Source: Nocardioides marmoriginsengisoli
Lineage (GTDB): Bacteria > Actinomycetota > Actinomycetes > Propionibacteriales > Nocardioidaceae
Length of the DNA: 43,263 nucleotides
Reading direction: 5' to 3'
Assembly (NCBI RefSeq): GCF_003725695.1
Contig: NZ_RJSE01000009.1
Coordinates: 524,831 to 568,093 of the forward strand
Positions 13,786 through 39,978 of this stretch are shown here, in pieces. The notes below the pieces were generated by a model, which searched no databases, was not told where the DNA came from, and saw only the letters and a program-made list of their open reading frames with translations. Positions within the stretch are counted from its first letter, which is position 1. The number at the start of each line of letters is the position of its first letter. Made by a program: the position numbers and the translations under genes.

Positions 13786-13812
13786 GGATCAACGGTTTGA
13801 TCAGTGAACCAA
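13786..13812 (+). promoter_or_regulatory. Island operator, site A (substrate-binding protein operon)
   Basis: The 17-bp core GGTTTGATCAGTGAACC is at 13794-13810, with upstream half-site GGATCA at 13786-13791. It covers roughly -3 to +24 of the predicted transcript, a position for repression. Related copies precede five other transcription units in this island. The half-site architecture also forms an internal perfect dyad GATCAA/TTGATC. Confidence 0.75.
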
Positions 13813-13865
13813 GGGCGGCCCGAGCAGTCGGAGATCTCACCCTTGTCAAACGGAAGGTTCTAGCA

Positions 13866-15410
13866 ATGGCGCAACCTCCAGGTAGCCGGCTTCGGTGGAG
13901 TATCGGGCTCACCTTTGCTCTGGTTTCCGCCCTCGTGCTCAGTGCATGCGGTGGCCTCTCCGGCGGCGATGAGCCGTCCGGCAACGGCAACAAGACGCTC
14001 CGCATCGGAATGGCTTCCGATGCGCAGAGCCTCGACCCGCCGAACTTCGTCCTCGCGGGCGACTTCACGCGGGACAACCTGGTCTACGAAGGCCTGGTGA
14101 AGCTCACCAACGACGGCCAGTTCGAGCCCAGCCTCGCGACGTCGTGGAAGCAGGTCTCCGACACCGAGTGGGACTTCAAGCTCCGTGAGGGCGTCAAGTT
14201 CCAGGACGGCACCGACTTCGACTCGGCCGCGGTCAAGAAGAGCCTCGAGCGGGCCTCGACCCAGGCTCAGGGCAAGGGCTTCCTCGGCATGATCAAGGAA
14301 GTTCAGACCCCCGACCCGATGACGGCGCGGCTCGTCCTGACGAACCCGTTCTCCAGCATCCTGAACAACCTGACCGTTCCGGTCGCCGCGATCATCAGCC
14401 CCAAGGCGCTGGACGAGAAGGGCGACAAGATCGCGAAGGAGCCGGTCGGAACCGGTCCGTTCGAGTTCGTGGAGTGGATCCCGGACACCTCGATGACCTT
14501 CAAGCGGTACTCCGGCTACTGGGGCGACAAGCCCTCGGTCGACAAGGTCTCGTTCATCCCGATCCCCGAGGCGAGCACCCGCTACAGCGCGCTCCAGGCC
14601 GGTGACATCGACGTCATCGAGAACCCGCCGCCGGACCAGGCCGCCTCGCTCAAGTCGTCCTCGGACTTCTACCTGATCACCGAGCCGAAGGCCCGGCCGA
14701 TCTTCCTCGGCTTCAACCTCAAGACCGTCACCAACCCGGTGATCCGCAAGGCCGTCGCCCACGCGATCGACCGCAACGCGATCGTCGACGACGTGCTCGA
14801 AGGCATCGGCAACGCTGCCAACGAGGGTCTGGTGTCGCCGGAGTTCCTGAAGAACGACCCGCCGATCAAGCTCGACTACAACCCGGAAGAGTCCAAGAAG
14901 CTCCTCAAGGACGCCGGTCTGTCGAACGTCAAGCTCACGCTGACGCTCCCGGCGGCTCGCTACCTCAAGGACAAGGACATCGGCGAGGTCGTCCAGCAGC
15001 AGCTGGCGAAGGTCGGCATCACGCTGAAGCTCGACGTGCAGGAGGCCGGTACCTGGTACCAGTCGCTGCTCGACCACAAGACCGAGATGTACTACCTCGG
15101 CTGGGGCATGAGCTCCGGTGACCCGGGCGACATGCTGCTCCGCGTGTTCCGCAGCGACTCGGTGAACAACATGTCGCAGTTCAAGGACCCGGCTGTCGAC
15201 GCTCAGATCGACTCGCTCGCCACCCTCGAGGTCGGCAGCGACGAGCGCAACCAGGTGATGCAGGACGTCCAGCGCAAGCTGGTCGAGGACGACGCCGTCG
15301 TCATCCCGCTGTACCACATGGTCAACTTCTTCGCCGCTCGTAAGGGAGTCCAGAACTTCCACACGACGACGTCGGAGCTCATCGATCTGTCTGACGTCAC
15401 GGTCGACTGA
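13866..15410 (+). CDS. ABC transporter substrate-binding lipoprotein (family 5)
   Basis: A 514-aa lipoprotein with lipobox LSAC (Cys28) after a hydrophobic signal peptide. The mature part reads as a family 5 (peptide/nickel/opine-type) solute-binding protein: LRIGMASDAQSLDPP near the start, FKLREGVKFQDGTDF, and GTGPFEFVEW. Family 5 proteins bind peptides but also opines, glutathione and other amine-containing solutes, so the ligand cannot be named. ATG 13866 has GGAAGG 8 nt upstream; the longer frame from 13797 would begin inside the operator. It heads an operon with the demethylase gene. Its permeases and ATPases are encoded at 31,544-33,338 and 22,664-24,813. Confidence 0.92.
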   Translation: MAQPPGSRLRWSIGLTFALVSALVLSACGGLSGGDEPSGNGNKTLRIGMASDAQSLDPPNFVLAGDFTRDNLVYEGLVKLTNDGQFEPSLATSWKQVSDTEWDFKLREGVKFQDGTDFDSAAVKKSLERASTQAQGKGFLGMIKEVQTPDPMTARLVLTNPFSSILNNLTVPVAAIISPKALDEKGDKIAKEPVGTGPFEFVEWIPDTSMTFKRYSGYWGDKPSVDKVSFIPIPEASTRYSALQAGDIDVIENPPPDQAASLKSSSDFYLITEPKARPIFLGFNLKTVTNPVIRKAVAHAIDRNAIVDDVLEGIGNAANEGLVSPEFLKNDPPIKLDYNPEESKKLLKDAGLSNVKLTLTLPAARYLKDKDIGEVVQQQLAKVGITLKLDVQEAGTWYQSLLDHKTEMYYLGWGMSSGDPGDMLLRVFRSDSVNNMSQFKDPAVDAQIDSLATLEVGSDERNQVMQDVQRKLVEDDAVVIPLYHMVNFFAARKGVQNFHTTTSELIDLSDVTVD

Positions 15411-15415
15411 TCGTG

Positions 15416-15450
15416 GTGGGGTGCCGTCGTTTCGCCGCGCGGCACCCCAC
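15416..15450 (+). terminator. Intercistronic hairpin after the binding-protein gene
   Basis: GTGGGGTGCCG (15416-15426) pairs with CGGCACCCCAC (15440-15450) across a 13-nt loop, 5 nt after the stop. With no promoter seen before the next gene, it probably acts as a partial terminator or 3' stabiliser, keeping binding-protein mRNA in excess over the downstream enzymes. Confidence 0.65.
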
Positions 15451-15489
15451 CGCACCCACCCCCCGCAGCACTCACTGAAAGAAGGAACA

Positions 15490-17943
15490 ATGGCTACCCC
15501 CCAGCCGTCCCGAGCACAGGTCGTTGTGATCGGCGGCGGCATCGTCGGCACGAGCGTCGCGTACCACCTCACCAAGCTGGGGGTGACCGATGTCGTAGTC
15601 CTCGAGCAGGGCAAGCTCTCCGGCGGAACGACCTGGCACGCCGCCGGGCTGGTCGGCCAGCTGCGGCCGACCGACGCGATGACCAAGCTCATCCAGTACT
15701 CCACCCAGCTCTACGCCACGCTCGAGGAGGAGACCGGTCTCGGCACCGGCTGGAAGCGCTGCGGCAGCCTCTCGGTGGCGCGCACCGAGGAGCGGATGAC
15801 GTCGCTGATGCGCACGCTCGCCACCGCCCGCGCGTTCGGCGTCGAGGCCGAGCGGCTCACCCCGGCCGAGGCCGGCGAGAAGTGGCCGCTGATGCGGACC
15901 GACGACCTGGTCGGCGCGGTCTGGCTGCCGGGTGACGGCAAGGCCAACCCCACCGACCTCACCCAGGCGCTGGCGCGCGGCGCCCGCAGCCATGGCGCGA
16001 TCGTCTGCGAGGACACCCAGGTCACCGACCTGGAGATGGCGGGCAACCGGATCACCGGCGTCCGCACCCAGAACGGCCTGATCGAGTGCGACACCGTCGT
16101 GAACTGCGCCGGCCAGTGGGCCGCCCAGATCGGCGCGATGGCCGGGGTGAAGGTCCCGCTGCACTCCGTCGAGCACTTCTACGTCGTGACCGACCCGATC
16201 GAGGGCGTCCACCGCGACCTGCCGGTGATGCGCGACCAGGACGGCTACATCTACTTCAAGGAAGAGGTCGGCGGCCTGGTGATGGGCGGGTTCGAGCCCG
16301 ACGCCAAGCCGTGGGTCGGTCCGTACGACATCCCGGACCCGTTCGTCTTCCAGCTGCTCGAGGACGACTGGGAGCAGTTCGCGATCCTGATGGAGAACGC
16401 GATCACCCGGGTCCCGGCGCTCGAGACCGCCGGCATGAAGAAGCTCTACAACGGCCCCGAGTCGTTCACGCCGGACAACAACTTCATCATGGGCGAGGCC
16501 GTCGAGTGCCCGAACATGTACGTGCTCGCCGGCTTCAACTCCACCGGGATCGCGTCGGCCGGCGGCGCCGGTATGGCGATGGCCGAGTGGATCGTCGCCG
16601 GTGAGCCCGACCGCGACCTGTGGCCGGTGGACATCCGCCGGTTCGCGCCGTTCAACTCCAACGAGACCTGGCTGCGCGAGCGCACCAAGGAGACCCTCGG
16701 CCTGCACTACGCGATCCCGTGGCCGAACAAGGAGCCCGACACCGGTCGCCCGCTGCGCCGCTCGCCGATCCACCACCTGCTCGACGACAGCGGTGCCGTG
16801 ATGGGCAACCGCAACGGCTGGGAGCGGCCGAACTGGTTCGCCCCCGAGGGCGTCGCCCGGGTCACCGAGTACTCCTTCGGCCACCAGAACTGGCGGCCGT
16901 ACGTGAACGCCGAGCACCAGGCCACCCGTGACCAGGTGGCACTGCTCGACCAGACCGCGTTCTCCAAGTTCCTGCTCCGCGGCCCGGACGTCGAGGCGGC
17001 GTTGCAGTGGATCTGCGCCAACGACATGGCGGTCGCACCGGGGACCACCGTCTACACCGGCATCCTCAACGACCGCGGCGGCTACGAGTCCGACGTGACT
17101 GTGACCCGGACGGCGATCGACGAGTACCTGCTGGTGACCGGCTCGGCCCAGGGCACCCGCGACGAGCACTACCTCAACCGGCACCTGCCTGCGGGCTCGC
17201 GGGTCGAGGTCGTCGACGTCACCTCGTCGTACGCGGTGCTCGGGATCATGGGGCCGCAGTCGCGGACCCTGCTCAACCGGCTCAGCAACGCCGACCTGGG
17301 CAACGAGGCGTTCCCGTTCTACACCAGCCAGAAGATCGACATCGGGCCGGTTCCGGTCCGCGCGACCCGGGTCTCGTACGTCGGCGACCTGGGCTGGGAG
17401 CTCTACATCCCCACCGAGTACGCCGTCACCGCCTACGAGCGCCTGGTCGACGCCGGCGCCGATCTCGGCCTGACCGCAGTCGGCCACTACGCGGTCGACG
17501 CGATGCGGATCGAGAAGGGCTACCGGGCCTGGGGCCGCGAGCTGACCCCGGACCGCACCCCGGTCGAGGCCGGGATGACGTTCACCTGCAAGCTGGCGAG
17601 CGGGGTCGACTTCCGCGGCCGGGAAGCGGTCGAGAAGGCGAAGGCCGCCGGCCCGCGTGCCCGGCTGGTCTCGGTCACCCTCAACGACCCGGACGCCGTC
17701 CTCTGGGGTGGTGAGCTGCTGCTCCGTAACGGTGAGCCCCGCGGGTTCGTGACCTCGGCGGCGTACAGCGCTGTCCTCGGTCGCTGCGTCGCGATGGCGT
17801 ACGTCGAGCCGGAGGTGGAGATCGCCGACGCCGACTACGTCCGCGGCGGGACCTACCAGGTCGAGGCGGCCGGCGTGGTCTTCGACGCCGAGGTCAGCCT
17901 CAAGGCGCCGTACGACCCGACCGGCTCGCGGCTGAAGGGCTGA
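15490..17943 (+). CDS. Dimethylglycine/sarcosine dehydrogenase-like N-demethylase (FAD + GcvT)
   Basis: An 817-aa two-part enzyme. Residues about 10-390 form a DAO-type FAD domain with the GGGIVG dinucleotide motif (15-20) and GTTWHAAGL, whose His50 matches the covalent FAD-binding His of dimethylglycine dehydrogenase. Residues about 430-800 form a GcvT-like tetrahydrofolate-binding domain plus C-terminal barrel. Such enzymes oxidise an N-methyl amine and pass the carbon to tetrahydrofolate as 5,10-methylene-THF. purU and folD follow directly. The same set occurs on plasmid pAO1 of a nicotine-degrading Paenarthrobacter, where mabO oxidises gamma-N-methylaminobutyrate. The true substrate here could be dimethylglycine, sarcosine, N-methyl-GABA or similar. 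ATG 15490 is preceded by GAAGGA. Confidence 0.88.
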   Translation: MATPQPSRAQVVVIGGGIVGTSVAYHLTKLGVTDVVVLEQGKLSGGTTWHAAGLVGQLRPTDAMTKLIQYSTQLYATLEEETGLGTGWKRCGSLSVARTEERMTSLMRTLATARAFGVEAERLTPAEAGEKWPLMRTDDLVGAVWLPGDGKANPTDLTQALARGARSHGAIVCEDTQVTDLEMAGNRITGVRTQNGLIECDTVVNCAGQWAAQIGAMAGVKVPLHSVEHFYVVTDPIEGVHRDLPVMRDQDGYIYFKEEVGGLVMGGFEPDAKPWVGPYDIPDPFVFQLLEDDWEQFAILMENAITRVPALETAGMKKLYNGPESFTPDNNFIMGEAVECPNMYVLAGFNSTGIASAGGAGMAMAEWIVAGEPDRDLWPVDIRRFAPFNSNETWLRERTKETLGLHYAIPWPNKEPDTGRPLRRSPIHHLLDDSGAVMGNRNGWERPNWFAPEGVARVTEYSFGHQNWRPYVNAEHQATRDQVALLDQTAFSKFLLRGPDVEAALQWICANDMAVAPGTTVYTGILNDRGGYESDVTVTRTAIDEYLLVTGSAQGTRDEHYLNRHLPAGSRVEVVDVTSSYAVLGIMGPQSRTLLNRLSNADLGNEAFPFYTSQKIDIGPVPVRATRVSYVGDLGWELYIPTEYAVTAYERLVDAGADLGLTAVGHYAVDAMRIEKGYRAWGRELTPDRTPVEAGMTFTCKLASGVDFRGREAVEKAKAAGPRARLVSVTLNDPDAVLWGGELLLRNGEPRGFVTSAAYSAVLGRCVAMAYVEPEVEIADADYVRGGTYQVEAAGVVFDAEVSLKAPYDPTGSRLKG

Positions 17944-17947
17944 GGAC

Positions 17948-18847
17948 ATGAGCGAGAGCACCCTCACCGCCCCGCAGCGCAAGACCGAGCCGGACGCCGG
18001 GGGGCTGGTGATCACCCTGTCCTGCGCCGACCGGCCCGGGATCGTCCGCGCGGTGGTCGACTTCTTCTTCCGGAACGGCTGCGACATCGTCGAGAGCAAC
18101 CAGTTCGGCGAACCGTCGTCCGGTCTGTTCTTCATGCGGGTGCAGATGCGCACCGGCGACTCCACGCCCGCACTGGCCGAGCTCGAAGCTGCCTTCGCAC
18201 CGATCGCGGCGGAGTTCGCGATGGACTACGAGATCAGCGACCTGGGCCGCCCGGTCCGGCTGCTGCTGATGGTCTCCAAGTTCGACCACTGCCTCCAGGA
18301 CCTGCTGTACCGCTGGTCCAGCGGCTTGCTGCCGGCCGAGATCCCGGTGATCGTCTCCAACCACCCGGACCTCGAACCGCTCGCGGCCCGGCACGGCATC
18401 GAGTTCCGGCACATCCCGGTGACCAAGGAGACCAAGGCGGCCGCCGAGGCCGAGCTGCTCGCGATCGTGGAGGAGCACGACGTCGACCTGGTGGTGCTGG
18501 CGCGCTACATGCAGATCCTCTCCGAGGACCTCTGCAAGGAGCTCGACGGTCGCGCGATCAACATCCACCACTCGTTCCTGCCGAGCTTCAAGGGCGCGAA
18601 CCCCTACCGCCAGGCGCACGAGCGCGGCGTCAAGCTGGTCGGCGCCACCGCGCACTACGTCACCTCGGACCTGGACGAGGGCCCGATCATCGAGCAGAAC
18701 GTCGCCCGCGTCGACCACCAGGCGTCGGTGCAGGACCTGGTCGCCCTGGGGCGCGACACCGAGTCGCACACCCTGGCCCGCGCGGTGCTCTGGCACGTCC
18801 AGCGCCGGGTGCTGCTCAACGGTCACCGCACCGTCGTCTTCCGCTGA
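17948..18847 (+). CDS. purU: Formyltetrahydrofolate deformylase PurU
   Basis: A 299-aa enzyme that hydrolyses 10-formyl-THF to formate and THF. An N-terminal ACT domain (about 20-100, starting VITLSCADRPGIV) precedes a formyltransferase-fold domain. The catalytic residues Asn205 and His207 (INIHHSFLPSFKGANPY) and Asp243 (SDLDEGPII) are present. It starts 4 nt after the demethylase stop. In this setting its job is to regenerate free THF and discard the methyl carbon as formate, rather than feed purine synthesis. Confidence 0.95.
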   Translation: MSESTLTAPQRKTEPDAGGLVITLSCADRPGIVRAVVDFFFRNGCDIVESNQFGEPSSGLFFMRVQMRTGDSTPALAELEAAFAPIAAEFAMDYEISDLGRPVRLLLMVSKFDHCLQDLLYRWSSGLLPAEIPVIVSNHPDLEPLAARHGIEFRHIPVTKETKAAAEAELLAIVEEHDVDLVVLARYMQILSEDLCKELDGRAINIHHSFLPSFKGANPYRQAHERGVKLVGATAHYVTSDLDEGPIIEQNVARVDHQASVQDLVALGRDTESHTLARAVLWHVQRRVLLNGHRTVVFR

Positions 18848-18904: not shown

Positions 18905-19741
18905 ATGGCCATCCTCGACGGCCAAGCAGCAGCAGCGGACCTGTTGGCCCACGTCGGCCTCCGCGCCGCGGAATTCACCGAGCGGACCGGCCGGGCGCCG
19001 ATGCTGGCGACCGTGCTCGTCGGCTCGGACCCCGCCTCGCACACCTACGTCAAGATGAAGCAGAACCGGTGCCGCCAGGTCGGCATCGAGTCCCGTCGCG
19101 TCGAGCTCGGTCAGGAGACCACGACCGAGGAGCTCGTCGCCGCGGTCGAGGCGCTCTCGGCCGACGACGCCGTGGACGGCATCCTGCTCCAGCACCCGGT
19201 GCCGCCGCAGATCGACGAGCACCTCGCGTTCGAGGCGATCAGCCCGGAGAAGGACGTCGACGGCGTGACGCTGGCGAGCTTCGCGGCGATGTCGTTCAGC
19301 GAGCCGGGCTACGCCTCGTGCACACCCGGCGGCATCATGCGGCTGCTCGACGCGTACGACGTCGACCTCGCCGGCAAGCACGCGGTCGTGGTCGGCCGGA
19401 GCCGGATCCTCGGCAAGCCGATGGCGATGCTGATGCTCGAGCGCAACGCGACCGTCACGATCTGCCACTCCCGGACGACGGACCTCGCCGACCGGGTCGC
19501 CGAGGCCGACGTCGTCGTCGCCGCGGTCGGCCGGCCCGAGCTGGTGCGCGGCGCCTGGATCAAGCCCGGCGCGGTCGTCGTCGACGCCGGCTACAACGCC
19601 GGCAACGTCGGTGACGTCGAGTACGGCGCCGCCGCGGAGCGGGCCTCCTGGATCACGCCGGTCCCCGGCGGGGTCGGCCCGATGACGATCGCGACGCTGC
19701 TCGCCCAGACCATGGACTCGGCCGAGCGCCGCGGTGCGTGA
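18905..19741 (+). CDS. folD: Methylene-THF dehydrogenase/cyclohydrolase FolD
   Basis: The 278-aa bifunctional enzyme turns 5,10-methylene-THF into 10-formyl-THF with NADP reduction. Family motifs are SHTYVKMKQ (Tyr48, catalytic Lys50), ILLQHPVP (Gln96), PEKDVDG (about 114-120), VVGRSRILGKP in the nucleotide-binding part, and TPVPGGVGPMTIA near the end. It bridges the demethylase and PurU in a methyl disposal route. GGAAGGA lies upstream of ATG 18905. This is probably a pathway-dedicated copy in addition to a housekeeping FolD elsewhere, which cannot be checked here. Confidence 0.95.
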   Translation: MAILDGQAAAADLLAHVGLRAAEFTERTGRAPMLATVLVGSDPASHTYVKMKQNRCRQVGIESRRVELGQETTTEELVAAVEALSADDAVDGILLQHPVPPQIDEHLAFEAISPEKDVDGVTLASFAAMSFSEPGYASCTPGGIMRLLDAYDVDLAGKHAVVVGRSRILGKPMAMLMLERNATVTICHSRTTDLADRVAEADVVVAAVGRPELVRGAWIKPGAVVVDAGYNAGNVGDVEYGAAAERASWITPVPGGVGPMTIATLLAQTMDSAERRGA

Positions 19742-21126: not shown

Positions 21127-22605
21127 GTGAGCCACAACCACGACGAAGCCGGCCTGCTCGCGCAGGTGCGTACCGACCTGCTGATCGACGGTGAGTGGCG
21201 CCCGGCGACCGGGGGCGGGACGTTCGACGTCGCCGACCCGGCCACCGGGGCGGCCTTCACCGCGGTCGCCGACGCCACCGCCGAGGACGGTGCCGCCGCA
21301 CTCGACGCCGCCGTCCGGGCGCAGGCAGCCTGGGGCAGTACGGCGCCTCGGGAGCGCGGCGAGATCCTGCGCAAGGCCTACGACCGGATGATCGAGCGGG
21401 CCGACGACTTCGCCCTGCTGATGACGATCGAGATGGGCAAGCCGCTCGCCGAGGCCCGCGGCGAGGTCCTGTACGCCGCCGAGTTCCTGCGCTGGTTCTC
21501 CGAGGAGGCGGTCCGGATCGACGGCCGCTACACGGTCGCGCCGGACGGGAAGAACCGGCTGCTGGTGCACCGCCGCCCGGTCGGCCCGTGCCTGTTCATC
21601 ACCCCGTGGAACTTCCCGCTCGCGATGGCCACCCGGAAGGTGGCCCCCGCGGTCGCGGCCGGCTGCACGATGGTGATGAAGCCGCCGGCGCTGACCCCGC
21701 TCTCGACCCTGTTCTTCGCCCAGCTGATGGAGGAGTGCGGACTGCCCGCGGGCGTCCTCAACGTCGTTCCGACGACCAGCGCCGGCAAGGTCACCGGCCC
21801 GTTGATCGCGGACCCGCGGCTGCGCAAGCTCTCCTTCACCGGCTCCACCGAGGTCGGCCGCCGGCTGCTCCGCGACGCCGCCGACCAGGTCCTGCGCACC
21901 TCGATGGAGCTCGGCGGCAACGCCCCGCTGCTGGTCTTCGAGGACGCCGACCTGGACCTCGCCGTCGAGGGCGCGCTGGCCGCGAAGCTGCGCAACATGG
22001 GCCAGGCCTGCACGGCGGCCAACCGGATGATCGTGCACGAGTCGGTCGCGGTCGAGTTCTCCGAGCGGCTGGCCAAGCGGATGGACGCGCTGAGCACCGG
22101 GCGCGGCACCGAGGCCGGGACCGACATCGGCCCGCTGATCGACGAGCCCAGCCGGGCGAAGGTGCACGAGCTGGTCACCGACGCCGTCGACCGCGGCGCC
22201 CGGGCGCTCACCGGCGGCGAGCTCGTCGACGGGCCGGGCCACTACTACCGCCCGACGGTGCTGGTCGACGTACCGGCCGGGTCGCGGATCCTGGCCGAGG
22301 AGGTCTTCGGGCCGGTCGCCCCGATCGTCACGTTCAGCACCGAGGACGAGGCGGTCGCGCTCGCCAACGACACCGAGTACGGCCTGGCGGCGTACGTGTT
22401 CACCCGGGACGGCGCCCGCGGTCTGCGCCTCGCCGAGACGATCGAGTCCGGGATGCTCGGTCTCAACCTCGGGATCATCTCGAACGCGGCTGCTCCGTTC
22501 GGCGGCATCAAGCAGTCCGGGATGGGTCGCGAGGGCGGCGCCGAGGGCATCGAGGAGTACCTGGACGTCCGCTACCTGGCGATCGCGGACCCGTTCGCCT
22601 CCTGA
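21127..22605 (+). CDS. NAD(P)-dependent aldehyde dehydrogenase, succinate-semialdehyde type
   Basis: A 492-aa ALDH with the catalytic residues Asn162 (TPWNFP), Glu261 (MELGGNAP) and nucleophile Cys295 (NMGQACTAANR), and the FTGSTEVG cofactor loop. The sequence is closest in style to GabD/succinate-semialdehyde dehydrogenases. It probably oxidises the semialdehyde made by the aminotransferase at 34,948-36,309. pAO1 likewise carries a succinate-semialdehyde dehydrogenase with its N-methyl-GABA oxidase. GTG 21127 follows GGGAGAG. It is the last gene of this operon; a strong terminator follows. Confidence 0.9.
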   Translation: MSHNHDEAGLLAQVRTDLLIDGEWRPATGGGTFDVADPATGAAFTAVADATAEDGAAALDAAVRAQAAWGSTAPRERGEILRKAYDRMIERADDFALLMTIEMGKPLAEARGEVLYAAEFLRWFSEEAVRIDGRYTVAPDGKNRLLVHRRPVGPCLFITPWNFPLAMATRKVAPAVAAGCTMVMKPPALTPLSTLFFAQLMEECGLPAGVLNVVPTTSAGKVTGPLIADPRLRKLSFTGSTEVGRRLLRDAADQVLRTSMELGGNAPLLVFEDADLDLAVEGALAAKLRNMGQACTAANRMIVHESVAVEFSERLAKRMDALSTGRGTEAGTDIGPLIDEPSRAKVHELVTDAVDRGARALTGGELVDGPGHYYRPTVLVDVPAGSRILAEEVFGPVAPIVTFSTEDEAVALANDTEYGLAAYVFTRDGARGLRLAETIESGMLGLNLGIISNAAAPFGGIKQSGMGREGGAEGIEEYLDVRYLAIADPFAS

Positions 22606-28139: not shown

Positions 28140-28153
28140 GGTCGTCCCCCTTC

Positions 28154-30465: not shown

Positions 30466-30501
30466 GGGGTCCCGCCTCTCCTCGGTGCGAGCGAACCTCG
30501 A

Positions 30502-30630: not shown

Positions 30631-30657
30631 GAATCAACGGTTCGACTATCGAACCAG
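30631..30657 (+). promoter_or_regulatory. Island operator, site B (crotonase-permease operon)
   Basis: The core GGTTCGACTATCGAACC (30639-30655) is the most symmetric copy and closely resembles IclR-family sites of the GTTCG-N5-CGAAC type known for PcaR/PcaU-like regulators. The half-site GAATCA lies upstream. Its end touches the AGGAGGAG ribosome binding site of the crotonase gene. Confidence 0.75.
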
Positions 30658-31483: not shown

Positions 31484-31543
31484 TCTCCGCCTAGGCTCTC
31501 GATCCTCACCCGGATCGGGCCGACGTGCCGGGAAGGACAAAGC

Positions 31544-32464
31544 ATGGCCCTCTACATCGCGAAGCGGGTGGCACAGATCGTGCCGCTGCTGCTGATCATC
31601 GCCTTCGTCGTCTTCATCGCCCTGGAGATGGCGCCGGGCGATCCCGCGACCCTGCTGCTCGGCCAGAACGCCACCCCTGCGGAGGTCGCCAAGCTGAACG
31701 CCGACCTCGGGCTCGACCGACCGGTGGTGGTCCAGTACCTCTCCTTCGTCGGCGACGCCGTCCAGGGCGACCTCGGCCAGTCGTACCGCAGCGGACGCGA
31801 CGTGGTCTCCGAGCTGTCCCGCACCGTCGGCGTCAGCGCGACCCTGGCGATCACCGCGATGCTGCTGGCGATCATCGTCGGCGTCTCGGTCGGGATCATC
31901 TCGGCGGTCAAGCAGTACACGTGGATCGACAACGTGGTCCGGGTCGGCGTGCTGGCGCTGGTCTCGGTGCCGGTCTTCTGGCTGGCCATCCTGCTGATCA
32001 TCATGTTCTCGGTGAAGCTGTCGTTGTTCCCGGCGTTCGGCTGGGGGACCTACGACCACCTGGTGCTCCCGGCGCTGGCACTGAGCACCTATCCCCTGGC
32101 GGTGATCGCGCGGCTCACCAGATCGAGCATGCTCGAGGTGCTCGGCAGCGACTACGTCCGGACCGCCCGCGCGGCCGGGATGCCCGAGCGCACCGTCGTG
32201 CTCAAGTACTCGCTGAAGAACGCGCTCGGCCCGGTGATGACCGTGATCGGCCTCCAGTTCGGTGCCCTGATCGGCGGCGCGGTGCTGACCGAGACCGTCT
32301 TCGGCATCCCCGGCCTCGGCCGGCTGATGGTGACCGCCATCGAGGGCCGCGACTACCCGTTGGTGCGGGGGGCGGTGCTGCTCGGCACCGTCGTCTTCGT
32401 GCTGATCAACCTGATCGTCGACGTCCTGTACAAGTGGGTCGACCCCCGGCAGAGAGAGATCTGA
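31544..32464 (+). CDS. Peptide-type ABC transporter permease (DppB-like)
   Basis: A 306-aa permease with an N-terminal membrane segment, FVVFIALEMAPGDP, a large loop (NADLGLDRPVVVQYL) and the ATPase-contact EAA loop DYVRTARAAGMPERTVVLKYSLKNA. GGGAAGGA precedes the ATG. It starts a permease pair; the partner begins one base after its stop. It matches the family 5 binding protein at 13,866. Confidence 0.93.
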   Translation: MALYIAKRVAQIVPLLLIIAFVVFIALEMAPGDPATLLLGQNATPAEVAKLNADLGLDRPVVVQYLSFVGDAVQGDLGQSYRSGRDVVSELSRTVGVSATLAITAMLLAIIVGVSVGIISAVKQYTWIDNVVRVGVLALVSVPVFWLAILLIIMFSVKLSLFPAFGWGTYDHLVLPALALSTYPLAVIARLTRSSMLEVLGSDYVRTARAAGMPERTVVLKYSLKNALGPVMTVIGLQFGALIGGAVLTETVFGIPGLGRLMVTAIEGRDYPLVRGAVLLGTVVFVLINLIVDVLYKWVDPRQREI

Positions 32465-32465
32465 G

Positions 32466-33338
32466 ATGAGTGATCAAGCAGCTCCCACGCAGCTCGCCGA
32501 GCAGGGCCGTTGGTCGGAGACCTGGGGCGCCTTCGCCAAGAACAAGGCGGCCGTCGTCGGTCTGGTCATCCTGGTCGTGCTGATCGTCGTCGCGCTCCTC
32601 GCTCCCTGGATCGCCCCGCACGACCCGGTCGCCCAGAACCTGGACCTGCGACGCCAGGGCCCCAGCGGAGACGCCTGGTTCGGGCGCGACGAGTTCGGCC
32701 GGGACATCCTGTCCCGGGTGATGGTCGGTGCCCGGGCGACGCTGCTCGCCGCCGTCGGCTCGGTCCTGCTGAGCGGCATCATCGGCACGATCATCGGCGT
32801 CGTGGCCGGCTACCGCGGCGGGTTCGCCGACAGCCTGCTGATGCGCTCGATGGACCTGGTGCTCTCGTTCCCGTACTTCCTGCTGGCGATCCTGGTCGTC
32901 GCTGTCGCCGGGCCCAGCCTGCGCAACGCCGCGATCGCGATCGGGATCACCTACATCCCGCAGTACGCCCGCGTGGTGCGCGGCGCGACGCTGGAGGTGA
33001 TGGGCAAGGAGTACGTCGAAGCGGCGCACGCCTCCGGCGTACGGGGGCCTCGGATCGCCTGGAAGCACGTGCTGCCGAACATCAGCGCGCCGATCATCGT
33101 GATCACCACGGTGGGCCTGGCGCTGGCGATCGTGGGCATCTCCTCGCTCAGCTTCCTGGGCCTCGGAGCGCAGCCGCCGAGCCCGGAATGGGGCGCGATG
33201 CTCGCCGGCGGTCGCCAGTACGTGGCCTCGGCAGCGCACATCAGCATCTTCCCCGGACTCGCGATCCTGGTGACGGTGTTGTGCCTCAACCTCGTCGGTG
33301 ACGGACTGCGCGACACCTTCGACCCCACCCTGCGCTGA
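32466..33338 (+). CDS. Peptide-type ABC transporter permease (DppC-like)
   Basis: The 290-aa second permease has the typical N-terminal segment (AFAKNKAAVVGLVILVVLIVVALLAPWI region), FGRDEFGRDILSRV, and the EAA loop KEYVEAAHASGVRGPRIAWKH. Length is normal. It is separated by 1 nt from the first permease gene, implying coupled translation. Confidence 0.93.
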   Translation: MSDQAAPTQLAEQGRWSETWGAFAKNKAAVVGLVILVVLIVVALLAPWIAPHDPVAQNLDLRRQGPSGDAWFGRDEFGRDILSRVMVGARATLLAAVGSVLLSGIIGTIIGVVAGYRGGFADSLLMRSMDLVLSFPYFLLAILVVAVAGPSLRNAAIAIGITYIPQYARVVRGATLEVMGKEYVEAAHASGVRGPRIAWKHVLPNISAPIIVITTVGLALAIVGISSLSFLGLGAQPPSPEWGAMLAGGRQYVASAAHISIFPGLAILVTVLCLNLVGDGLRDTFDPTLR

Positions 33339-33384: not shown

Positions 33385-34173
33385 ATGTCAGCCAGTGAGT
33401 CTGGGCTCGTACGACGCACGATCTGGGTACTGCGTGCTGTCGCTGCGCACCCCAACGGCGTCGGGCTCAGCGAGGTCTCGCGCGAGTCCGGGATCCCGAA
33501 AGCGACCTGCTACCGAGTGCTCAACGTGCTCGAGCGGGAGAGCTGGCTGACCCTCGACCCGGACACCCGGCGCTACAAGGTCTCGCTCGGGCTGCTCTCG
33601 ATCGTCGGCGGCTTCCTCGACAGCAACGGCGGCTACCGGCACATGCGCCAGGTGATCACCGACCTGGCGGCGTCGACCCAGGAGACCTGCGGCTTCGACG
33701 TCCTGCACCCGCCGAACGTCATGGTCGTGGCCCAGGCGGCCGGTCCGCGACTGATCGGCCAGACGATGAAGCCGGTCCCGCGTACCCAGCCGGTGTGGGC
33801 GACCTCGACCGGCAAGGTGCTGCTGGCCAAGATCGACCGCCAGCTCTTCCTCGACGAGTACGCCGAGGAGATCGAGAAGAACGCGCCGCCGTCGATCGGC
33901 GGGGTCGAGAAGTTCGTCGCCGCCCTGGACTCGATCCGGGACCGCGGCTACGCCTACACCCGCGACGAGCTCGAGGACGGTGCGACCTCGGTCGCCGCCC
34001 CGGTGCGGGTCGGCGACACCTTCCCGTACGCCGTCTGGATCGGCGGACCCAGTTTCCGGTTGACGCCGGAGTGGATGGAGGGCGTGGCGCCGCTGCTGCT
34101 GGAGGCGTCGGCGAAGCTCGGCGAGCTGCTCACCTACACGGATCTGCGGCTGCCCAGCGACATGCAGGTCTGA
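33385..34173 (+). CDS. IclR-family transcriptional regulator, likely controller of the island
   Basis: A 262-aa regulator with an N-terminal winged helix-turn-helix (about 8-70: GLSEVSRESGIPKATCYRVLNVLERESWL) and a C-terminal GAF-like effector domain (about 85-255, including the family-typical WATSTGKVLLA and RGYAYTRDELEDGATSVAAPV). It is the only regulator within the island, and the six operator copies have the GTTC-N-GAAC palindrome shape known for IclR-family sites. No operator copy precedes its own gene; it lies 46 nt after the permease pair and may be read from that operon. ATG 33385 follows GGAAGG; an upstream in-frame start would overlap the permease gene. Confidence 0.92.
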   Translation: MSASESGLVRRTIWVLRAVAAHPNGVGLSEVSRESGIPKATCYRVLNVLERESWLTLDPDTRRYKVSLGLLSIVGGFLDSNGGYRHMRQVITDLAASTQETCGFDVLHPPNVMVVAQAAGPRLIGQTMKPVPRTQPVWATSTGKVLLAKIDRQLFLDEYAEEIEKNAPPSIGGVEKFVAALDSIRDRGYAYTRDELEDGATSVAAPVRVGDTFPYAVWIGGPSFRLTPEWMEGVAPLLLEASAKLGELLTYTDLRLPSDMQV

Positions 34174-34332: not shown

Positions 34333-34359
34333 GGACCACCGGTTCAACTAATGAACCAG
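34333..34359 (+). promoter_or_regulatory. Island operator, site C (DUF1185 operon)
   Basis: The core GGTTCAACTAATGAACC (34341-34357) with half-site GGACCA upstream covers the predicted transcription start. An ATG within it (34351) is in frame with the DUF1185 gene but has no ribosome binding site. Confidence 0.75.
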
Positions 34360-34374
34360 ACGGAGAAGGGAAAG

Positions 34375-34941
34375 ATGATGACCATTTCGGTGCGGAAGAC
34401 GGTGCGGCACCTGGAGGTGACCGAGCTCGAGAACGGGCAGCCGGTTTCGCCGGAGCATCGATTGGCCTTCGTGGGCATCGTCATCGAGAACCCCTACGGC
34501 TCCGGCTACACCCAGGACCTGGTGACCCTGGCCGACGAGATCGCCGAGTCGATCGGCGACCTGACCGGCCCGGCGTGCGTCGAGCTCCTCGGCGCCCCTG
34601 TCGAGGCCTTCGGCAAGGTGGCCCTGGTCGGCATCGGCGGTGAGGTCGAGCACGGCTCGGCGCTGATCCACAACCTCAAGTTCGGGAACGTCTTCCGCAA
34701 CGCCGCCGGCGGCACCGAGCTGCTGCCCGCCGCGGAGAAGGTCGGCCTGCCCGGCGACCCGATCGACGTACCGCTCAAGCACAAGACCGACTCCAAGACC
34801 CGCTCGCACCACCAGACGGTGACGCTGCAGGTCCCCGGCGCCCCGCTGCCGAACGAGATCCTCGTCGGCTGCGTCGCGACCAGCTCCGGCCGTCCGCTCT
34901 CGCGGCTGGCGACCTTCGGTGCCGAGACCGGCGAGAAGTAG
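34375..34941 (+). CDS. DUF1185 family protein (amino acid synthesis family, PF06684)
   Basis: A 188-aa protein with IENPYGSGYTQDL near the N-terminus and ALVGIGGEVEHGSALIHN in the middle, typical of DUF1185. Structures of family members show a variant of the chorismate mutase fold, and a link to amino-acid metabolism was suggested from gene context, but no reaction is established. It heads the operon with the aminotransferase, 6 nt away. His84 and the HNLKFGN segment could be catalytic; this is a guess. ATG 34375 (or 34378) follows GGAGAAGGG. Confidence 0.82.
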   Translation: MMTISVRKTVRHLEVTELENGQPVSPEHRLAFVGIVIENPYGSGYTQDLVTLADEIAESIGDLTGPACVELLGAPVEAFGKVALVGIGGEVEHGSALIHNLKFGNVFRNAAGGTELLPAAEKVGLPGDPIDVPLKHKTDSKTRSHHQTVTLQVPGAPLPNEILVGCVATSSGRPLSRLATFGAETGEK

Positions 34942-34947
34942 GACCCC

Positions 34948-36309
34948 ATGACAACCAGCGATGTGGCCTCCACCTGGGACGCAGAGCGAATCCGGACTGC
35001 CGACAAGGAGTTCGTGATCCACTCCTGGTCCAACCAGGGAGCAGTGAACGCAACTCCGATCGCCGGCGGACTCGGCGCGTGGTTCTGGGACTACGACGGG
35101 AACCGGTACCTCGACTTCCAGTCGCAGCTGGTCAACATGAACCTCGGCCACCAGCACCCGAAGATGGTCGAGGCGATCCAGGCCAAGGCCGCCGAGATGT
35201 GCTACATCGGCCCGAACTACGCCGAGCGCTCCCGCGCGGAGCTCGCCGAGCTGATGGCCGAGGTCACCCCCGGTGACCTGAAGATGAGCTTCTTCACCAC
35301 CGGTGGTGCCGCGGCCAACGAGAACGCGATCCGGCTGGCCCGGCACGTGACCGGCCGCCAGAAGGTCGTCGCGCGCTACCGCAGCTACCACGGTGCGACG
35401 GCGGGCGCGATCGCGATGACCGGGGACCCGCGTCGCTGGCACGCCGAGCCGACGCCGTCCGGCGTCGTCCGGATGTTCGACCCCTACACCTACCGCTGCT
35501 CGGCCGGTCACCCCGACCCGTGCCCGGTCTGCACCGGCGGACCGCACCTCGAGGAGATCCTGCAGTACGAGGACCCGACCTCGGTGGCCGCGGTGATCCT
35601 GGAGACCGTCACCGGCACCAACGGTCTGCTGCCGCCGCCTCCGGGCTACCTGCAGTCGATCCGGGAGACCTGCGACAAGTACGGCATCCTGCTGATCCTC
35701 GACGAGGTGATGGCCGGCTTCGGCCGCACCGGCGAGTGGTTCGCGTGCGACAACTACGACGTCACCCCGGACATCCTGATCACCGCCAAGGGCCTCAACT
35801 CCGGCTACGTGCCGCTCGGCGCGATGACGGTGAACGAGGAGATCTCGGGCTGGCTGATGAAGAACAAGTTCTGGGGCGGCCAGACGTACGCCGGTCACCC
35901 GCTGGCCTGCGCCAGCGGCGTCGCCTCGATCGAGATCATGCGCGAGGAGAAGATCGTCGAGAACTCCCGGGAGATGGGCCAGCGCCTGCGCGCCGGCCTC
36001 GACGGGCTCGCCGAGCGGCACCCGAGCATCGGCGAGATCCGCGGTCTGGGTCTCTTCCAGGGCGTCGAGCTGGTCAAGGACCGGAGCACCCGCGAGCCGC
36101 TGGTGCCGTTCAACGCGGTCGGTCCCGCGGCCGCGCCGATGGGCGCGATCGTGGCCGCCGCGAAGAAGCAGGGTCTCTACCTGTCGGCGAACAACAACGT
36201 GCTGCGGCTGACTCCCCCGCTGGTGATCGGCGCCGAGGACATCGACCTCGCGGTCGGGATCCTCGACGACGTGCTCGGCATCGCCGACGAAGCAGCAGCG
36301 ACCGCCTGA
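34948..36309 (+). CDS. Class III (omega-amino acid) aminotransferase
   Basis: A 453-aa PLP enzyme. Features are TTGGAAANENAIRLAR (cofactor phosphate loop), SYHGATAGA, ILDEVMAGFGRTG with the cofactor-binding Asp, and Lys in ITAKGLNSGY as the Schiff base. The insert CSAGHPDPCPVC resembles taurine- and beta-alanine-pyruvate aminotransferases. It likely turns an omega-amino acid (beta-alanine, beta-aminoisobutyrate, GABA or taurine-like) into a semialdehyde for the aldehyde dehydrogenase at 21,127. Its stop overlaps the next start (TGATG type). Confidence 0.9.
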   Translation: MTTSDVASTWDAERIRTADKEFVIHSWSNQGAVNATPIAGGLGAWFWDYDGNRYLDFQSQLVNMNLGHQHPKMVEAIQAKAAEMCYIGPNYAERSRAELAELMAEVTPGDLKMSFFTTGGAAANENAIRLARHVTGRQKVVARYRSYHGATAGAIAMTGDPRRWHAEPTPSGVVRMFDPYTYRCSAGHPDPCPVCTGGPHLEEILQYEDPTSVAAVILETVTGTNGLLPPPPGYLQSIRETCDKYGILLILDEVMAGFGRTGEWFACDNYDVTPDILITAKGLNSGYVPLGAMTVNEEISGWLMKNKFWGGQTYAGHPLACASGVASIEIMREEKIVENSREMGQRLRAGLDGLAERHPSIGEIRGLGLFQGVELVKDRSTREPLVPFNAVGPAAAPMGAIVAAAKKQGLYLSANNNVLRLTPPLVIGAEDIDLAVGILDDVLGIADEAAATA

Positions 36310-36983
36310 TGGCGACCGTCGCGGTGCTCGGGGGTACCGGTGCACTCGGCTTCGGCCTGGTGCTCCGGTTCGCCGCGGCCGGCTATCAGGTGGCGATTGG
36401 GTCGCGTGACGCCGACCGCGCCAAGGCGGCCGCCGAGCGCGCGACCGAGCTGGTGCCCGAGGCCTGGGTGCACGGCATGTCGTACGCCGACGCCGCTGCC
36501 GACGCGACCCGTCTGGTCGTGCTGACGGTGCCGTTCGCGAGCCAGGCCGAGACGCTCAAGGCGGTCTCCGGATCGTTGCGCGAGGGGATGGTCGTGCTCG
36601 ACACGACCGTCCCGCTCGCGCCCGCGGTCGGCGGCCGGCCGACCCAGCTCGTCGGTGTCTGGCAAGGCTCCGCCGCCCAGCAGGCGGCAGCCCTGGTGCC
36701 GGCCGGCGTCCGGGTCGTCAGCGCCCTGCACACGATCAGCGCCGCGGCGCTCACCGACCTCGGGCACGAGGTCGACGAGGACACGTTCCTGGCCGGCGCC
36801 GCGGAGGCGAAGAAGGTCGTGGCCGACCACCTGCAGGTGGTGCCCGGGCTCCGCGCGATCGATGCCGGACCGCTGGAGGCGAGCCGGCTCACCGAGTCGA
36901 TCACGCCGCTGCTGATCGGCCTGAACATGCGCTACAAGACCCATACCGGGGTGCGGATCACCGGATTGGAAGCGATCGCCTGA
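36309..36983 (+). CDS. NADPH:F420 oxidoreductase-like protein (Fno family)
   Basis: A 224-aa Rossmann protein. VAVLGGTGALGFGLVLRFA followed by VAIGSRDADRA is the NADP-binding start of F420H2:NADP oxidoreductase, and VVSALHTISAA, IDAGPLEASRLTES and TPLLIGLNMR match the F420-site motifs of that family. It would pass hydride between NADPH and F420, giving F420H2 for the LLM enzymes or recovering NADPH from F420H2. ATG 36309 overlaps the aminotransferase stop by one base. Confidence 0.85.
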   Translation: MATVAVLGGTGALGFGLVLRFAAAGYQVAIGSRDADRAKAAAERATELVPEAWVHGMSYADAAADATRLVVLTVPFASQAETLKAVSGSLREGMVVLDTTVPLAPAVGGRPTQLVGVWQGSAAQQAAALVPAGVRVVSALHTISAAALTDLGHEVDEDTFLAGAAEAKKVVADHLQVVPGLRAIDAGPLEASRLTESITPLLIGLNMRYKTHTGVRITGLEAIA

Positions 36984-37014: not shown

Positions 37015-38274
37015 ATGACCGACATCGTTCGCAAGAATGTCTCCACCACCGATGCCACCTTCGAGCTCGGCCAGCTGCCGCCGGTGGGTGAGGTACCGCG
37101 AACGATGACCGCGTTGGTGGTCCGCCAGGACCGCTTCGGGGACCCGGAGCAGGCGTTCAAGGTCGAGACCGGGATCCCGGTCCCGCCGATCGGCCCGGAC
37201 GAGGTGCTGATCGCGGTGATGGCCGCCGGCGTCAACTACAACAACGTGTGGGCCGCCCGCGGCTACCCGGTCGACCAGATCGCGACCCGGCAGAAGCGCG
37301 GCGAGACCGAGGACTTCCACGTCGGCGGCTCGGACGCCTCCGGCATCGTCTACGCCGTCGGCGAGAGCGTCACCGGGGTCGCGGTCGGCGACGAGGTCGT
37401 GGTGCACCCGGGTGTCTGGGACGCCGACGACCCGTGGATCGCCGCTGGCAAGGACCAGATGATCGCGCCGTCGGCCAAGATCTGGGGCTACGACACCAAC
37501 TACGGCTCGTTCGGCCAGTTCACCCGCGTGCAGGCGCACCAGGTGCTGCCCAAGGCACCGCACCTCTCCTGGGCGGAGGCCGCCGCCCCGACGCTGGTCG
37601 GCACGACGGCGTACCGGATGCTGCACGGCTTCGCTGGCAACACCGTCCAGCCCGACGACGTCGTCCTGGTCTGGGGTGGTTCCGGTGGACTCGGCACCCA
37701 GGCGGTCCAGCTGGCGGCGCTCGCCGGAGCCAAGGCGGTGGCCGTGGTCTCCGACGACGAGCGCGGCAAGTACGTGATGGAGCGCGGTGCGATCGGCTAC
37801 ATCAACCGCAACGACTTCACCCACTGGGGCATCCCGCCGCTGGTCGACGACGCCGCCGGCCAGAAGGAGTGGCTCGGCCAGGCCCGCGCCTTCGGCAAGA
37901 AGCTCTGGGACATCGTCGGCGAGCGCAAGGACCCCGCGATCGTCTTCGAGCACCCGGGCGCGGCCACCGTGCCGACCAGCATCATGGTCTGCGAGCCGGG
38001 CGGGATGGTCGTGATCTGCGCCGGCACCACCGGCTTCGACGCCGTCGTCGACCTCCGTTACCACTGGACCCGGCAGAAGCGCTTCCAGGGGAGCCACGGA
38101 ACCAACGACGAGCAGGCCCGGGCGTACAACGACCTGATGGTGGCCGGCAAGCTCGACCCCTGCCTCGGCCGCGTCGTCGCTTTCGCCGACCTGCCCCGGG
38201 TGCACTCCGAGATGGGCCGTGGCGAACAGGTCTTCGGCAACTCGGTGGCCCTCGTGGGTGCCGTCGCGGACTGA
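37015..38274 (+). CDS. Crotonyl-CoA carboxylase/reductase-like MDR dehydrogenase
   Basis: A 419-aa medium-chain reductase of the Ccr type. Ccr-like segments are AAGVNYNNVWAARG, SDASGIVYAVG, IWGYDTNYGSFGQFTRVQAHQ, TLVGTTAYRMLHGF, VWGGSGGLGTQAVQL and RQKRFQGSH, whose His matches a residue lining the CO2 pocket of characterised Ccr. It lacks structural zinc cysteines. It probably reduces (perhaps reductively carboxylates) a short enoyl-CoA such as acryloyl- or crotonyl-CoA. The Asp in GYDT replaces the Glu usual in GYET, so carboxylase activity is doubtful. GGGAAGGA precedes the ATG; the next gene starts one base after its stop. Confidence 0.85.
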   Translation: MTDIVRKNVSTTDATFELGQLPPVGEVPRTMTALVVRQDRFGDPEQAFKVETGIPVPPIGPDEVLIAVMAAGVNYNNVWAARGYPVDQIATRQKRGETEDFHVGGSDASGIVYAVGESVTGVAVGDEVVVHPGVWDADDPWIAAGKDQMIAPSAKIWGYDTNYGSFGQFTRVQAHQVLPKAPHLSWAEAAAPTLVGTTAYRMLHGFAGNTVQPDDVVLVWGGSGGLGTQAVQLAALAGAKAVAVVSDDERGKYVMERGAIGYINRNDFTHWGIPPLVDDAAGQKEWLGQARAFGKKLWDIVGERKDPAIVFEHPGAATVPTSIMVCEPGGMVVICAGTTGFDAVVDLRYHWTRQKRFQGSHGTNDEQARAYNDLMVAGKLDPCLGRVVAFADLPRVHSEMGRGEQVFGNSVALVGAVAD

Positions 38275-38275
38275 C

Positions 38276-39877
38276 GTGCTGGTCCCCCGCCGCCTCGCCG
38301 CGGCGCTGCGCGAGCTCGGAGTCGACACCGTCTTCGGCCTGATGGGTGACGGCAACCTGCATCACCTGATCGACTTCGACGACCTCGGCGGCACCGTGGT
38401 GACCGCCGTGACGGAGGGCGCCGCGGTCAGCATGGCCGACGGGTACGCCCGGGTCGGCAGCCGGCTCGGCGTCGCCTCGGTGACGCACGGTCCAGGCGCC
38501 ACCAACATGCTGACCGCGCTGGTGGAGGCGGTCCGCGCGCGGACGCCGCTGATCGTGCTGACCGGCGACACCGTCTCCCGGCCCGACCACCTGCAGGCCC
38601 TCGACCTGCGCGCGCTCGCCACCGTGGCCGGTGCCGGCTACCACCGGGTGCTGCGGGCCGAGGACGTCGCCGGCGACCTCGACGCCGTCGTCCGGCGGGT
38701 GCTGCGGTCGGGCACGCCGGTGCTCTTCGACGTCCCGGTCGACCTGCACGGGACCGAGGCAGCGGAGGCGCCGATCCTGCGTCCGGTCGACCTCGGCGCC
38801 GGACCGGCTCCGGGAGCCGACGACCTGGACCGGGCGCTCGGCGTGCTGGCCAGTGCGCGGCGGCCGGTGATCCTCGCCGGCCGCGGTGCCGCCGGGTCCC
38901 GGGACGAGATCCTCCGCCTCGCCGCGGTCCTCGGGGCACCGGTGGGGACGACGCTGCTCGGCAAGGGCCTCTTCGCGGGCGAGCCGCTCGACCTCGGCGT
39001 GATCGGCACGCTGAGCTCGGAGGTGACCGCCAGGACCGTGGGCGACGCCGACTGCGTGCTGGTGCTCGGCGCCGGGCTGAACCGTTACACCACCGTCGAC
39101 GGCTCGCTGTTCGCCGGCGCCGCGGTGGTGCACGTCGACCACGATGCGCTTCGGCTCTCCGGAGCGGCCGCGGTTGGGGTGGTCGCGGACGTCGGGGCCG
39201 CCGTACTGGCGATGACCGAGCTGCTGGTCGAGGTCGAGCACCCGGGTTCCTCGGGTCATCCCGCGGACCTGGCCGAGCGGCTCGCCGCGCACGATCCGTA
39301 CGACGAGTTCACCGACCGCAGCGGCGTCGACACCCTCGACGGCCGCACGGTGATGCTGGCGCTCGACGCGGTGCTGCCGCGGGAGCGGGTGGTGGTCACC
39401 GACACCGGCCGGTTCGTCTACGCGCCGTGGCGCTACCTCGGCGTGGCCGCCCCGACGGACTTCGTGCACACCTGCAACTTCGCGTCGATCGGCCTCGGAC
39501 TCGGTACGGCGATCGGGGCGGCGGTCGCGAGCGGCCGGCTCACCGTCGCGGTGGTCGGCGACGGCGGCGGCTTGATGAACCTGCTCGAGCTCAGCACCGC
39601 CGTACGTCTGGGCCTTCCGCTGGTGGTGGTCGTCTGCAACGACGGCGCCTACGGGATGGAGTACCGGCACCTGGTGCATGCCGGGCTGGACCCCTCACCG
39701 GCCCGGTGCGCGTGGCCGGACTTCGTCGAGATCGGTCGCGCGCTGGGTGCCGACGCGATCACCGTGCGCACCCGCGAGGAGCTCGACCGGGCGGGCGAGC
39801 TGTTCGCCGAGGTCCGGCGTCCGCTGCTGCTCGACGTCCGGTGCGACCCGTCGGTCGACGTCGGCGAAGCCTCCTGA
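38276..39877 (+). CDS. ThDP-dependent enzyme of the acetolactate synthase family
   Basis: A 533-aa enzyme with the three ThDP domains. The N-terminal part carries the activating Glu in VTEGAAVSMADGYAR; the middle domain is present; and the C-terminal domain has VGDGGGLMNLLELSTAVRLGLPLVVVVCND, the metal/ThDP-binding GDG-to-N motif. It is shorter than acetolactate synthase and lacks obvious hallmarks of oxalyl-CoA or benzoylformate enzymes. Decarboxylation or ligation of a 2-oxo acid is the general expectation; the substrate is unknown. The GTG start at 38276 is one base past the previous stop; no distinct ribosome site is seen, so coupling is likely. Confidence 0.83.
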   Translation: MLVPRRLAAALRELGVDTVFGLMGDGNLHHLIDFDDLGGTVVTAVTEGAAVSMADGYARVGSRLGVASVTHGPGATNMLTALVEAVRARTPLIVLTGDTVSRPDHLQALDLRALATVAGAGYHRVLRAEDVAGDLDAVVRRVLRSGTPVLFDVPVDLHGTEAAEAPILRPVDLGAGPAPGADDLDRALGVLASARRPVILAGRGAAGSRDEILRLAAVLGAPVGTTLLGKGLFAGEPLDLGVIGTLSSEVTARTVGDADCVLVLGAGLNRYTTVDGSLFAGAAVVHVDHDALRLSGAAAVGVVADVGAAVLAMTELLVEVEHPGSSGHPADLAERLAAHDPYDEFTDRSGVDTLDGRTVMLALDAVLPRERVVVTDTGRFVYAPWRYLGVAAPTDFVHTCNFASIGLGLGTAIGAAVASGRLTVAVVGDGGGLMNLLELSTAVRLGLPLVVVVCNDGAYGMEYRHLVHAGLDPSPARCAWPDFVEIGRALGADAITVRTREELDRAGELFAEVRRPLLLDVRCDPSVDVGEAS

Positions 39878-39920
39878 CCACGGGTTTCGCGCGGGGGCGG
39901 AAACTTGTGGTCGTCAGGTG

Positions 39921-39949
39921 TTGACAGAGCCTGCGAAGTCCTCAAGTAT
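39921..39949 (+). promoter_or_regulatory. Promoter of the LLM 2 operon
   Basis: TTGACA (39921-39926), 17-nt spacer, AAGTAT (39944-39949): a near-consensus promoter that would start at about 39956, inside the operator. Confidence 0.8.
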
Positions 39950-39951
39950 AT

Positions 39952-39978
39952 GAACCAGTGGTTCAACTACTGAACCAC
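39952..39978 (+). promoter_or_regulatory. Island operator, site D (LLM 2 operon)
   Basis: The core GGTTCAACTACTGAACC (39960-39976) and upstream half-site GAACCA. Here the third half-site is perfect: TGAACCA G TGGTTCA (39951-39965) is itself a dyad overlapping the core, so three alternating half-sites are exact. This is the cleanest copy. Confidence 0.8.

Follow-up and report, generated by a model that had tools for sequence, protein, structure and literature searches.

Operators built from three boxes of alternating direction have been predicted for 32 orthologous groups of IclR-family regulators, among which PcaU, PobR and HmgR are named in the main text of the survey by Suvorova and Gelfand, and for PcaU the third box has been shown to be needed for binding (PMC8222616). 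The same text also describes tandem IclR-family sites with 18-22 nt between their centres (PMC8222616). We have analysed a stretch of 43,263 nucleotides from Nocardioides marmoriginsengisoli, referred to as the window, in which six predicted operators of this kind precede six transcription units of one gene island that also encodes an IclR-family regulator of 262 aa (33385..34173, + strand). The best explanation, which we hold to be likely from the sequence, is that the six sites would be the operators of this protein, repressing all six units until a metabolite releases it. The three half-sites recognised in the original prediction thus follow a layout that has already been described for IclR proteins, and the regulon is a further case of it. 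As in the published operators, three alternating boxes with one group 1 and one group 2 consensus pair have been found, as judged by eye and with deviating inner positions. The regulator, the genes and the organisms are different from those of the survey, and the inner positions and the GAACC box of the island differ from the published consensuses (PMC8222616). On the whole, however, the boxes resemble these consensuses.

Six probable operators in one island

The operator reads GAACC, 3 bases, GGTTC, 7 bases and GAACC, with the box directions alternating; the last two boxes form a 17-bp palindrome, and the first box resembles half of a second palindrome. All six 17-bp cores that had been proposed are present in the window at their places and on their strands. 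Operator A (13786..13810, +) precedes the genes for a solute-binding protein, a DMGO/GcvT-like enzyme, PurU and FolD, and has TTGAC at -32. Operator B (24847..24871, -) precedes OppD-OppF and is without TTGAC. It sits in the interval 24814-24929 between the divergent genes for OppD (end 24813, -) and an acyl-CoA synthetase (from 24930, +) and may serve both units, which qualifies, at this site, the earlier assignment of a single gene side to each operator. Operator C (30504..30528, -), in front of hydantoinase-amidase-LLM1, has the weakest third box, GAACTG, which is the source of its two mismatches to the 25-bp pattern and the point at which the GRWYCA-like third half-site claimed for every site does not hold. 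Operator D (30631..30655, +) precedes enoyl-CoA hydratase-OppB-OppC-IclR, operator E (34333..34357, +) precedes AA_synth, a class-III aminotransferase (AT3), NpdG, crotonyl-CoA carboxylase/reductase and a thiamine pyrophosphate (TPP)-dependent enzyme, and operator F (39952..39976, +) precedes LLM2-amidase-glutamate dehydrogenase.

With the core pattern RGTTYRMYNANYGAACC at ≤1 mismatch, nine matches have been obtained in the window, which are the six sites, three of which match on either strand and are counted twice; 0.06 matches would be expected, and none of the 100 shuffles used as control has reached nine. In the genome of 4.46 Mb, the 25-bp pattern at ≤3 mismatches has given 24 matches, the best six being the window sites (five exact, and site C at two mismatches), so that the motif is not common genome-wide, in favour of the original prediction. 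Outside the window, 18 matches occur at exactly three mismatches, compared to five for the reversed pattern (genome G000). Chance or a genome-wide repeat as the source of the motif has been ruled out by the genome scan, the shuffles and the reversed-sequence control of the matrix search given below.

The third box has been assessed in relatives at sites found by the 17-bp core alone; the loci L090-L092 (L091 being part of the L043 contig) were set aside here as well as in the counts of TTGAC and of palindrome pairs. This search has yielded 63 distinct cores in 35 loci (104 matches over both strands, and one in the reversed sequence), and a GAACC-like third box has been seen at a fixed place on one side in 53 of the 63, with 3.6% expected, and on both sides in none. 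The palindrome pairs lie 20 bp (six pairs), 21 bp (two), 25 bp (two) and 42 bp (two) apart from centre to centre. The 25-bp pairs, located in L031 (around 5976-6025) and L037 (around 5960-6009), look like two operators in a row. Regarding the orientation, 59 sites have been considered, six in the window and 53 in relatives: in 38, a mapped gene start is found no more than 250 bp away on the flank opposite the third box, and in two on the third-box flank only; the other 19 are without a mapped gene start, as only the window's own proteins were mapped.

Conservation together with the IclR gene

A scan of named genomes for relatives of the IclR protein has given 25 loci, 21 of which (L023-L043) carry an IclR gene at 46-83% identity, with orthology judged by similarity; the short matches in Clostridia (L044-L047) have been dropped from all site counts. 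When a matrix is built from no sites other than the six of the window, the motif is recovered in all 21 loci, with best scores of 18.2-41.1 versus 4.3-13.5 in the reversed sequence, and at a score of 16 the matrix returns 66 matches (both strands counted) in 397,363 bases of relatives versus none in the reversed control. The occurrence of the same sites upstream of orthologous genes, suggested as a check in the original prediction, has thus been found. In N. carbamazepini, Nocardioides sp. LHD-245 and SLBN-35 (L023/L080, L024/L082 and L025/L081) all six operators have counterparts before the same genes: A before SBP-DMGO, with GGATC as its third box, in L080-L082; B before OppD in L023-L025, and also in L027 and L083; C in L023-L025 as a tandem palindrome, 20-21 bp apart and without the usual third box; D before enoyl-CoA hydratase in L023-L026, the L026 copy lacking the third box; and F before LLM2 in L023-L025. 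As for operator E, AA_synth is the gene that follows 19 of the 38 sites with a mapped gene; in L043 no site has been seen directly before the AA_synth gene. The underlying tblastn maps used the frames 21109-22242 (-) and 35520-36983 in place of the aldehyde dehydrogenase and NpdG genes described below.

A second cluster type has been observed in Micromonosporaceae, Streptomyces and others, in which one operator precedes a gene run ending in the IclR gene and another precedes AA_synth-aminotransferase-dihydropyrimidinase-LLM2-NpdG-amidase (the genes being named after L039, where they were checked). An additional site, in front of another gene, is present in some Streptomyces loci. In three genomes (G214, G209 and G213) the IclR gene and a site before AA_synth-AT3 are on different contigs (the site being in L049 at 958, L071 and L085), and the link is therefore to the target genes and not to the neighbourhood only. 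No regulon gene could be assigned to four further sites (L048, L068, L086 and L049 at 496); those at 1501-1525 of L048 and 1501-1525 of L068, from the Ruicaihuangia caeni genome, are operator-like sites away from the IclR locus.

The pattern at ≤1 mismatch occurs in all 20 genomes with an IclR relative (the L030 genome being left out), exactly in 16 of them, and in none of the 20 reversed controls; this count is partly circular, as the pattern was drawn partly from the same sites. The independent part of the co-occurrence test is a class-wide scan, in which the exact motif has been found in one of 394 genomes, N. marmoriginsengisoli itself, and an IclR relative in two of 394; in the second of these, G232, the matrix detects two sites (L042 probably belongs to the genome G232, and L028 to G060). 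Among 197 genomes sampled from the family, two have this IclR gene or a relative, one of them being N. marmoriginsengisoli itself, and therefore the island is accessory.

The regulator itself belongs to the IclR family, since both its helix-turn-helix domain (PF09339, 44.4 bits, cut-off 22) and its C-terminal domain (PF01614, 66.7 bits, cut-off 24) score above their cut-offs, as taken on the longer frame 33298-34173. Membership in the pcaR_pcaU subfamily (PcaR/PcaU/PobR) has been rejected, TIGR02431 giving 103.8 bits versus a cut-off of 284.75, although it is still the best NCBIfam family; the relatives of solved structure, by sequence, are various IclR proteins including a Pca-regulon regulator, the p-hydroxybenzoate hydroxylase activator and TtgV. 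Over 22 sequences, the own one included, the mean identity to the window's IclR is 0.85 for residues 1-70, 0.92 for the recognition helix and 0.62 for residues 71-262. The DNA-binding half is thus the more conserved one, and the motif, present in all 20 genomes that have a relative, tracks the gene; no other regulator has turned up among the island genes scanned, in line with the earlier statement that it is the only one. Since the gene lies downstream of operator D, autoregulation is expected and the regulator is probably a member of its own regulon. That another IclR-family paralogue elsewhere in the genome binds the six sites has been considered in view of the seven IclR_C genes found there, but in several genera the motif goes together with relatives of the local gene, and the local gene itself stands behind an operator, which makes a paralogue a very improbable candidate. 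From the co-occurrence, the local IclR protein is predicted to bind the six sites.

Promoter position and proposed mode of regulation

Of the 59 sites, 48 have a TTGAC element at a distance of 25-45 bp ahead of the first box, as against two of 59 when the mirror control is scored; 31 bp is the most frequent spacing (21 sites), and 40 of the 59 fall within 29-34 bp. The original prediction had placed A, C and D on a predicted transcription start; in the window, TTGAC stands 31-34 bp ahead of the first box at A, C, E and F, stands 40 bp ahead of it at D and is absent at B. With TTGAC most often some 31 bp ahead of it, the operator would probably overlie the -10/start region. A fourth box that completed the upstream palindrome would overlap the expected -10 region, and this may be the reason for the lack of a fourth box in most operators.

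Accordingly placed, the six operators are probably repressor sites covering the predicted transcription start, most likely for the local, autoregulated IclR protein. In the mechanism that we propose, an IclR dimer would occupy the 17-bp core, with a further contact at the third box made by a tetramer or an alternative dimer; the bound protein over the -10/start region would block RNA polymerase until a pathway metabolite releases it, and with the release all six units, among them the operon of the regulator itself, would be switched on at once. The sequence itself shows the motif and its confinement to the island, the fact that it is conserved along with the IclR gene, the third box and the -35 distance, whereas binding, repression, the oligomer and the effector are what we infer.

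Two other readings have been weighed. The local IclR protein could bind the same sites as an effector-dependent activator, or act both ways: PcaU and PobR, which have three-box sites, activate, and pcaR_pcaU is the nearest family, if below its cut-off. Activators usually bind further upstream, however, and the boxes lie downstream of TTGAC in 48 of the 59 sites, so that we regard activation as unlikely. A LysR-type regulator is encoded nearby (12005-12976), 0.8 kb before operator A, LysR sites follow a T-N11-A rule, and the palindrome GGTTC-N7-GAACC contains T-N11-A. Nevertheless, no LysR match at E≤1e-10 has been obtained in the motif-bearing loci of relatives (flanks of ≤10 kb on each side, so that a distant copy is possible), and the apparent position of the operators, over the transcription start, is unusual for LysR activators; binding of the sites by this regulator appears extremely improbable.

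Several observations count against the six sites being repressor operators of the local IclR protein. By the criterion used, ten of the 63 cores have no third box (three A-type sites with GGATC, five tandem palindromes and two others). A -10 hexamer 17-18 bp after TTGAC has been scored in only 26 of 48 sites, and the simple score picked poor hexamers in many others, the start being predicted only; TTGAC is missing at site B, and is found at -40 in the D-type sites and at -43 in four others. The relatives were chosen by their IclR gene, and conservation among them cannot by itself distinguish between this IclR protein and some other factor linked to it; the scan of the class rests on two genomes with an IclR relative, of which G232 has no exact match and owes its sites to the matrix only. 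Moreover, the site counts are not independent, as many sites share descent, the genome holds seven IclR_C genes, and the PcaU and PobR precedents leave room for activation. Repression by the local IclR protein is nevertheless the reading that we retain.

Island genes, a possible pathway and known systems

The genes have been scanned from 12005 rightward. Between the LysR gene and operator A, the segment 13134-13652 has a strong coding signal by codon-position GC. The unit behind operator A comprises the solute-binding protein (SBP_bac_5; 13797..15410, +), the frame of which opens inside the operator so that the true start lies further on, an FAD oxidoreductase fused to GcvT-like domains (15421..17943, +), an ACT plus formyltransferase protein that is PurU-like (17948..18847, +) and a FolD-like protein (18905..19741, +). 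A single open frame at 19787-21082 combines GNAT acetyltransferase and AAA ATPase domains. An aldehyde dehydrogenase resembling succinate-semialdehyde dehydrogenase (21130..22605, start approximate, +; 568.7 bits, cut-off 646.35) may be a regulon member; on closer reading it has replaced a minus-strand frame at 21109-22242. It is followed by the ATPases OppF (22664-23785, -) and OppD (23782-24813, -), the acyl-CoA synthetase of the NDP-forming type (24930..27059, +), the run of LLM1, carbon-nitrogen hydrolase 1 and a hydantoinase/allantoinase-like amidohydrolase (27135..30510, -), and enoyl-CoA hydratase, OppB and OppC (30671..33338, +), the island transporter being an oligopeptide-type ABC system (OppBCDF and the solute-binding protein).

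Behind operator E lie AA_synth (PF06684) and the class-III aminotransferase (34351..36309, +), followed by NpdG, an NADPH-dependent F420 reductase (36309..36983, +; TIGR01915, 198.4 bits, cut-off 149.8), which on closer reading has replaced the frame 35520-36983. The adjoining crotonyl-CoA carboxylase/reductase in the same run (37015..38274, +) scores 478.8 bits with TIGR01751 (cut-off 378.55), and the TPP-dependent enzyme of the acetolactate-synthase superfamily (38219..39877, +) stays below the cut-offs of its best 25 families. The last unit consists of LLM2 (40008..41018, +), nearest to F420-dependent methylene-tetrahydromethanopterin reductases and below curated cut-offs, carbon-nitrogen hydrolase 2 (40969-41883, +) and glutamate dehydrogenase (41880-43163, +).

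The solved structures nearest to LLM2 are Mer-type reductases, yet its score is below the Mer cut-offs. With NpdG and this Mer-like protein in one regulon, an F420-dependent reduction of a cyclic ureide may be proposed, and an F420-dependent breakdown of such compounds is suggested by the presence of NpdG, the Mer-like reductase, a hydantoinase, an amidase and a transaminase among the genes under control; the extra CoA and one-carbon genes suggest a larger or methylated substrate. The F420 biosynthesis model for CofD (TIGR01819) is above its cut-off in all 21 genomes considered (L030 left out). More tentatively, and with somewhat greater doubt than confidence, the IclR regulon could control a reductive pathway of actinobacteria that depends on F420H2, acts on pyrimidines or cyclic ureides related to them and has not been described so far. 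In it, NpdG would recharge F420, the Mer-like LLM would take the place of dihydropyrimidine dehydrogenase in reducing the ring, and the remaining steps of the breakdown would fall to dihydropyrimidinase/hydantoinase, amidase, transaminase and aldehyde dehydrogenase.

The result is a clean, sequence-defined regulon that is conserved across several actinobacterial genera, and its operators show which genes belong together even when an operon lies on another contig, and they point to an F420-dependent step. The natural variants, with three boxes, tandem palindromes or two three-box operators in a row, make the alternative binding modes of IclR dimers, a question raised in the literature, directly testable. 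In the literature searched, neither this regulon or cluster nor the apparent F420-dependent pathway has been found described, apart from a precedent in Chloroflexota; hydantoin, COG0044, COG2141, COG0388 and COG2085 are absent from the main text of the operator survey, the supplements of which may list the regulon (PMC8222616). A Haloferax paper concerns, in the passages considered, other genes.

Reductive pyrimidine catabolism consists of dihydropyrimidine dehydrogenase, dihydropyrimidinase and ureidopropionase. The island differs from it in that the window's hydantoinase is below the dihydropyrimidinase cut-off (281.1 versus 393.25 bits) and that the PreA-type dihydropyrimidine dehydrogenase model NF006183 is above its cut-off in none of 19 genomes (L030, L041 and L043 left out), which is weak evidence, as such an absence may be common. 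It resembles this route in the operon of L039, the only relative tested, where a dihydropyrimidinase above the cut-off (499 versus 393.25 bits) stands alongside an amidase and a transaminase. For the breakdown of N-heterocycles in Chloroflexota, a putative F420 luciferase-family reductase has been proposed together with the hydantoinase-type gene HyuA (PMC12507026). The island shares this combination of reductase and hydantoinase-type gene, whereas the phylum is another one, no YgfK/XdhD-type gene has been seen among the window genes scanned, and no IclR regulon appears in the passages considered. A likeness of motif exists to NpdR, the IclR-family regulator of 2,4,6-trinitrophenol utilisation in Rhodococcus opacus, although its spacer is one base longer and the island has a hydantoinase and amidases. 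The motif listed for NpdR, GTTCMRYATMRTGAWS, resembles the island core (PMC8222616), and picrate is reduced in such bacteria by F420H2-dependent LLM-type enzymes (PMC8498797).

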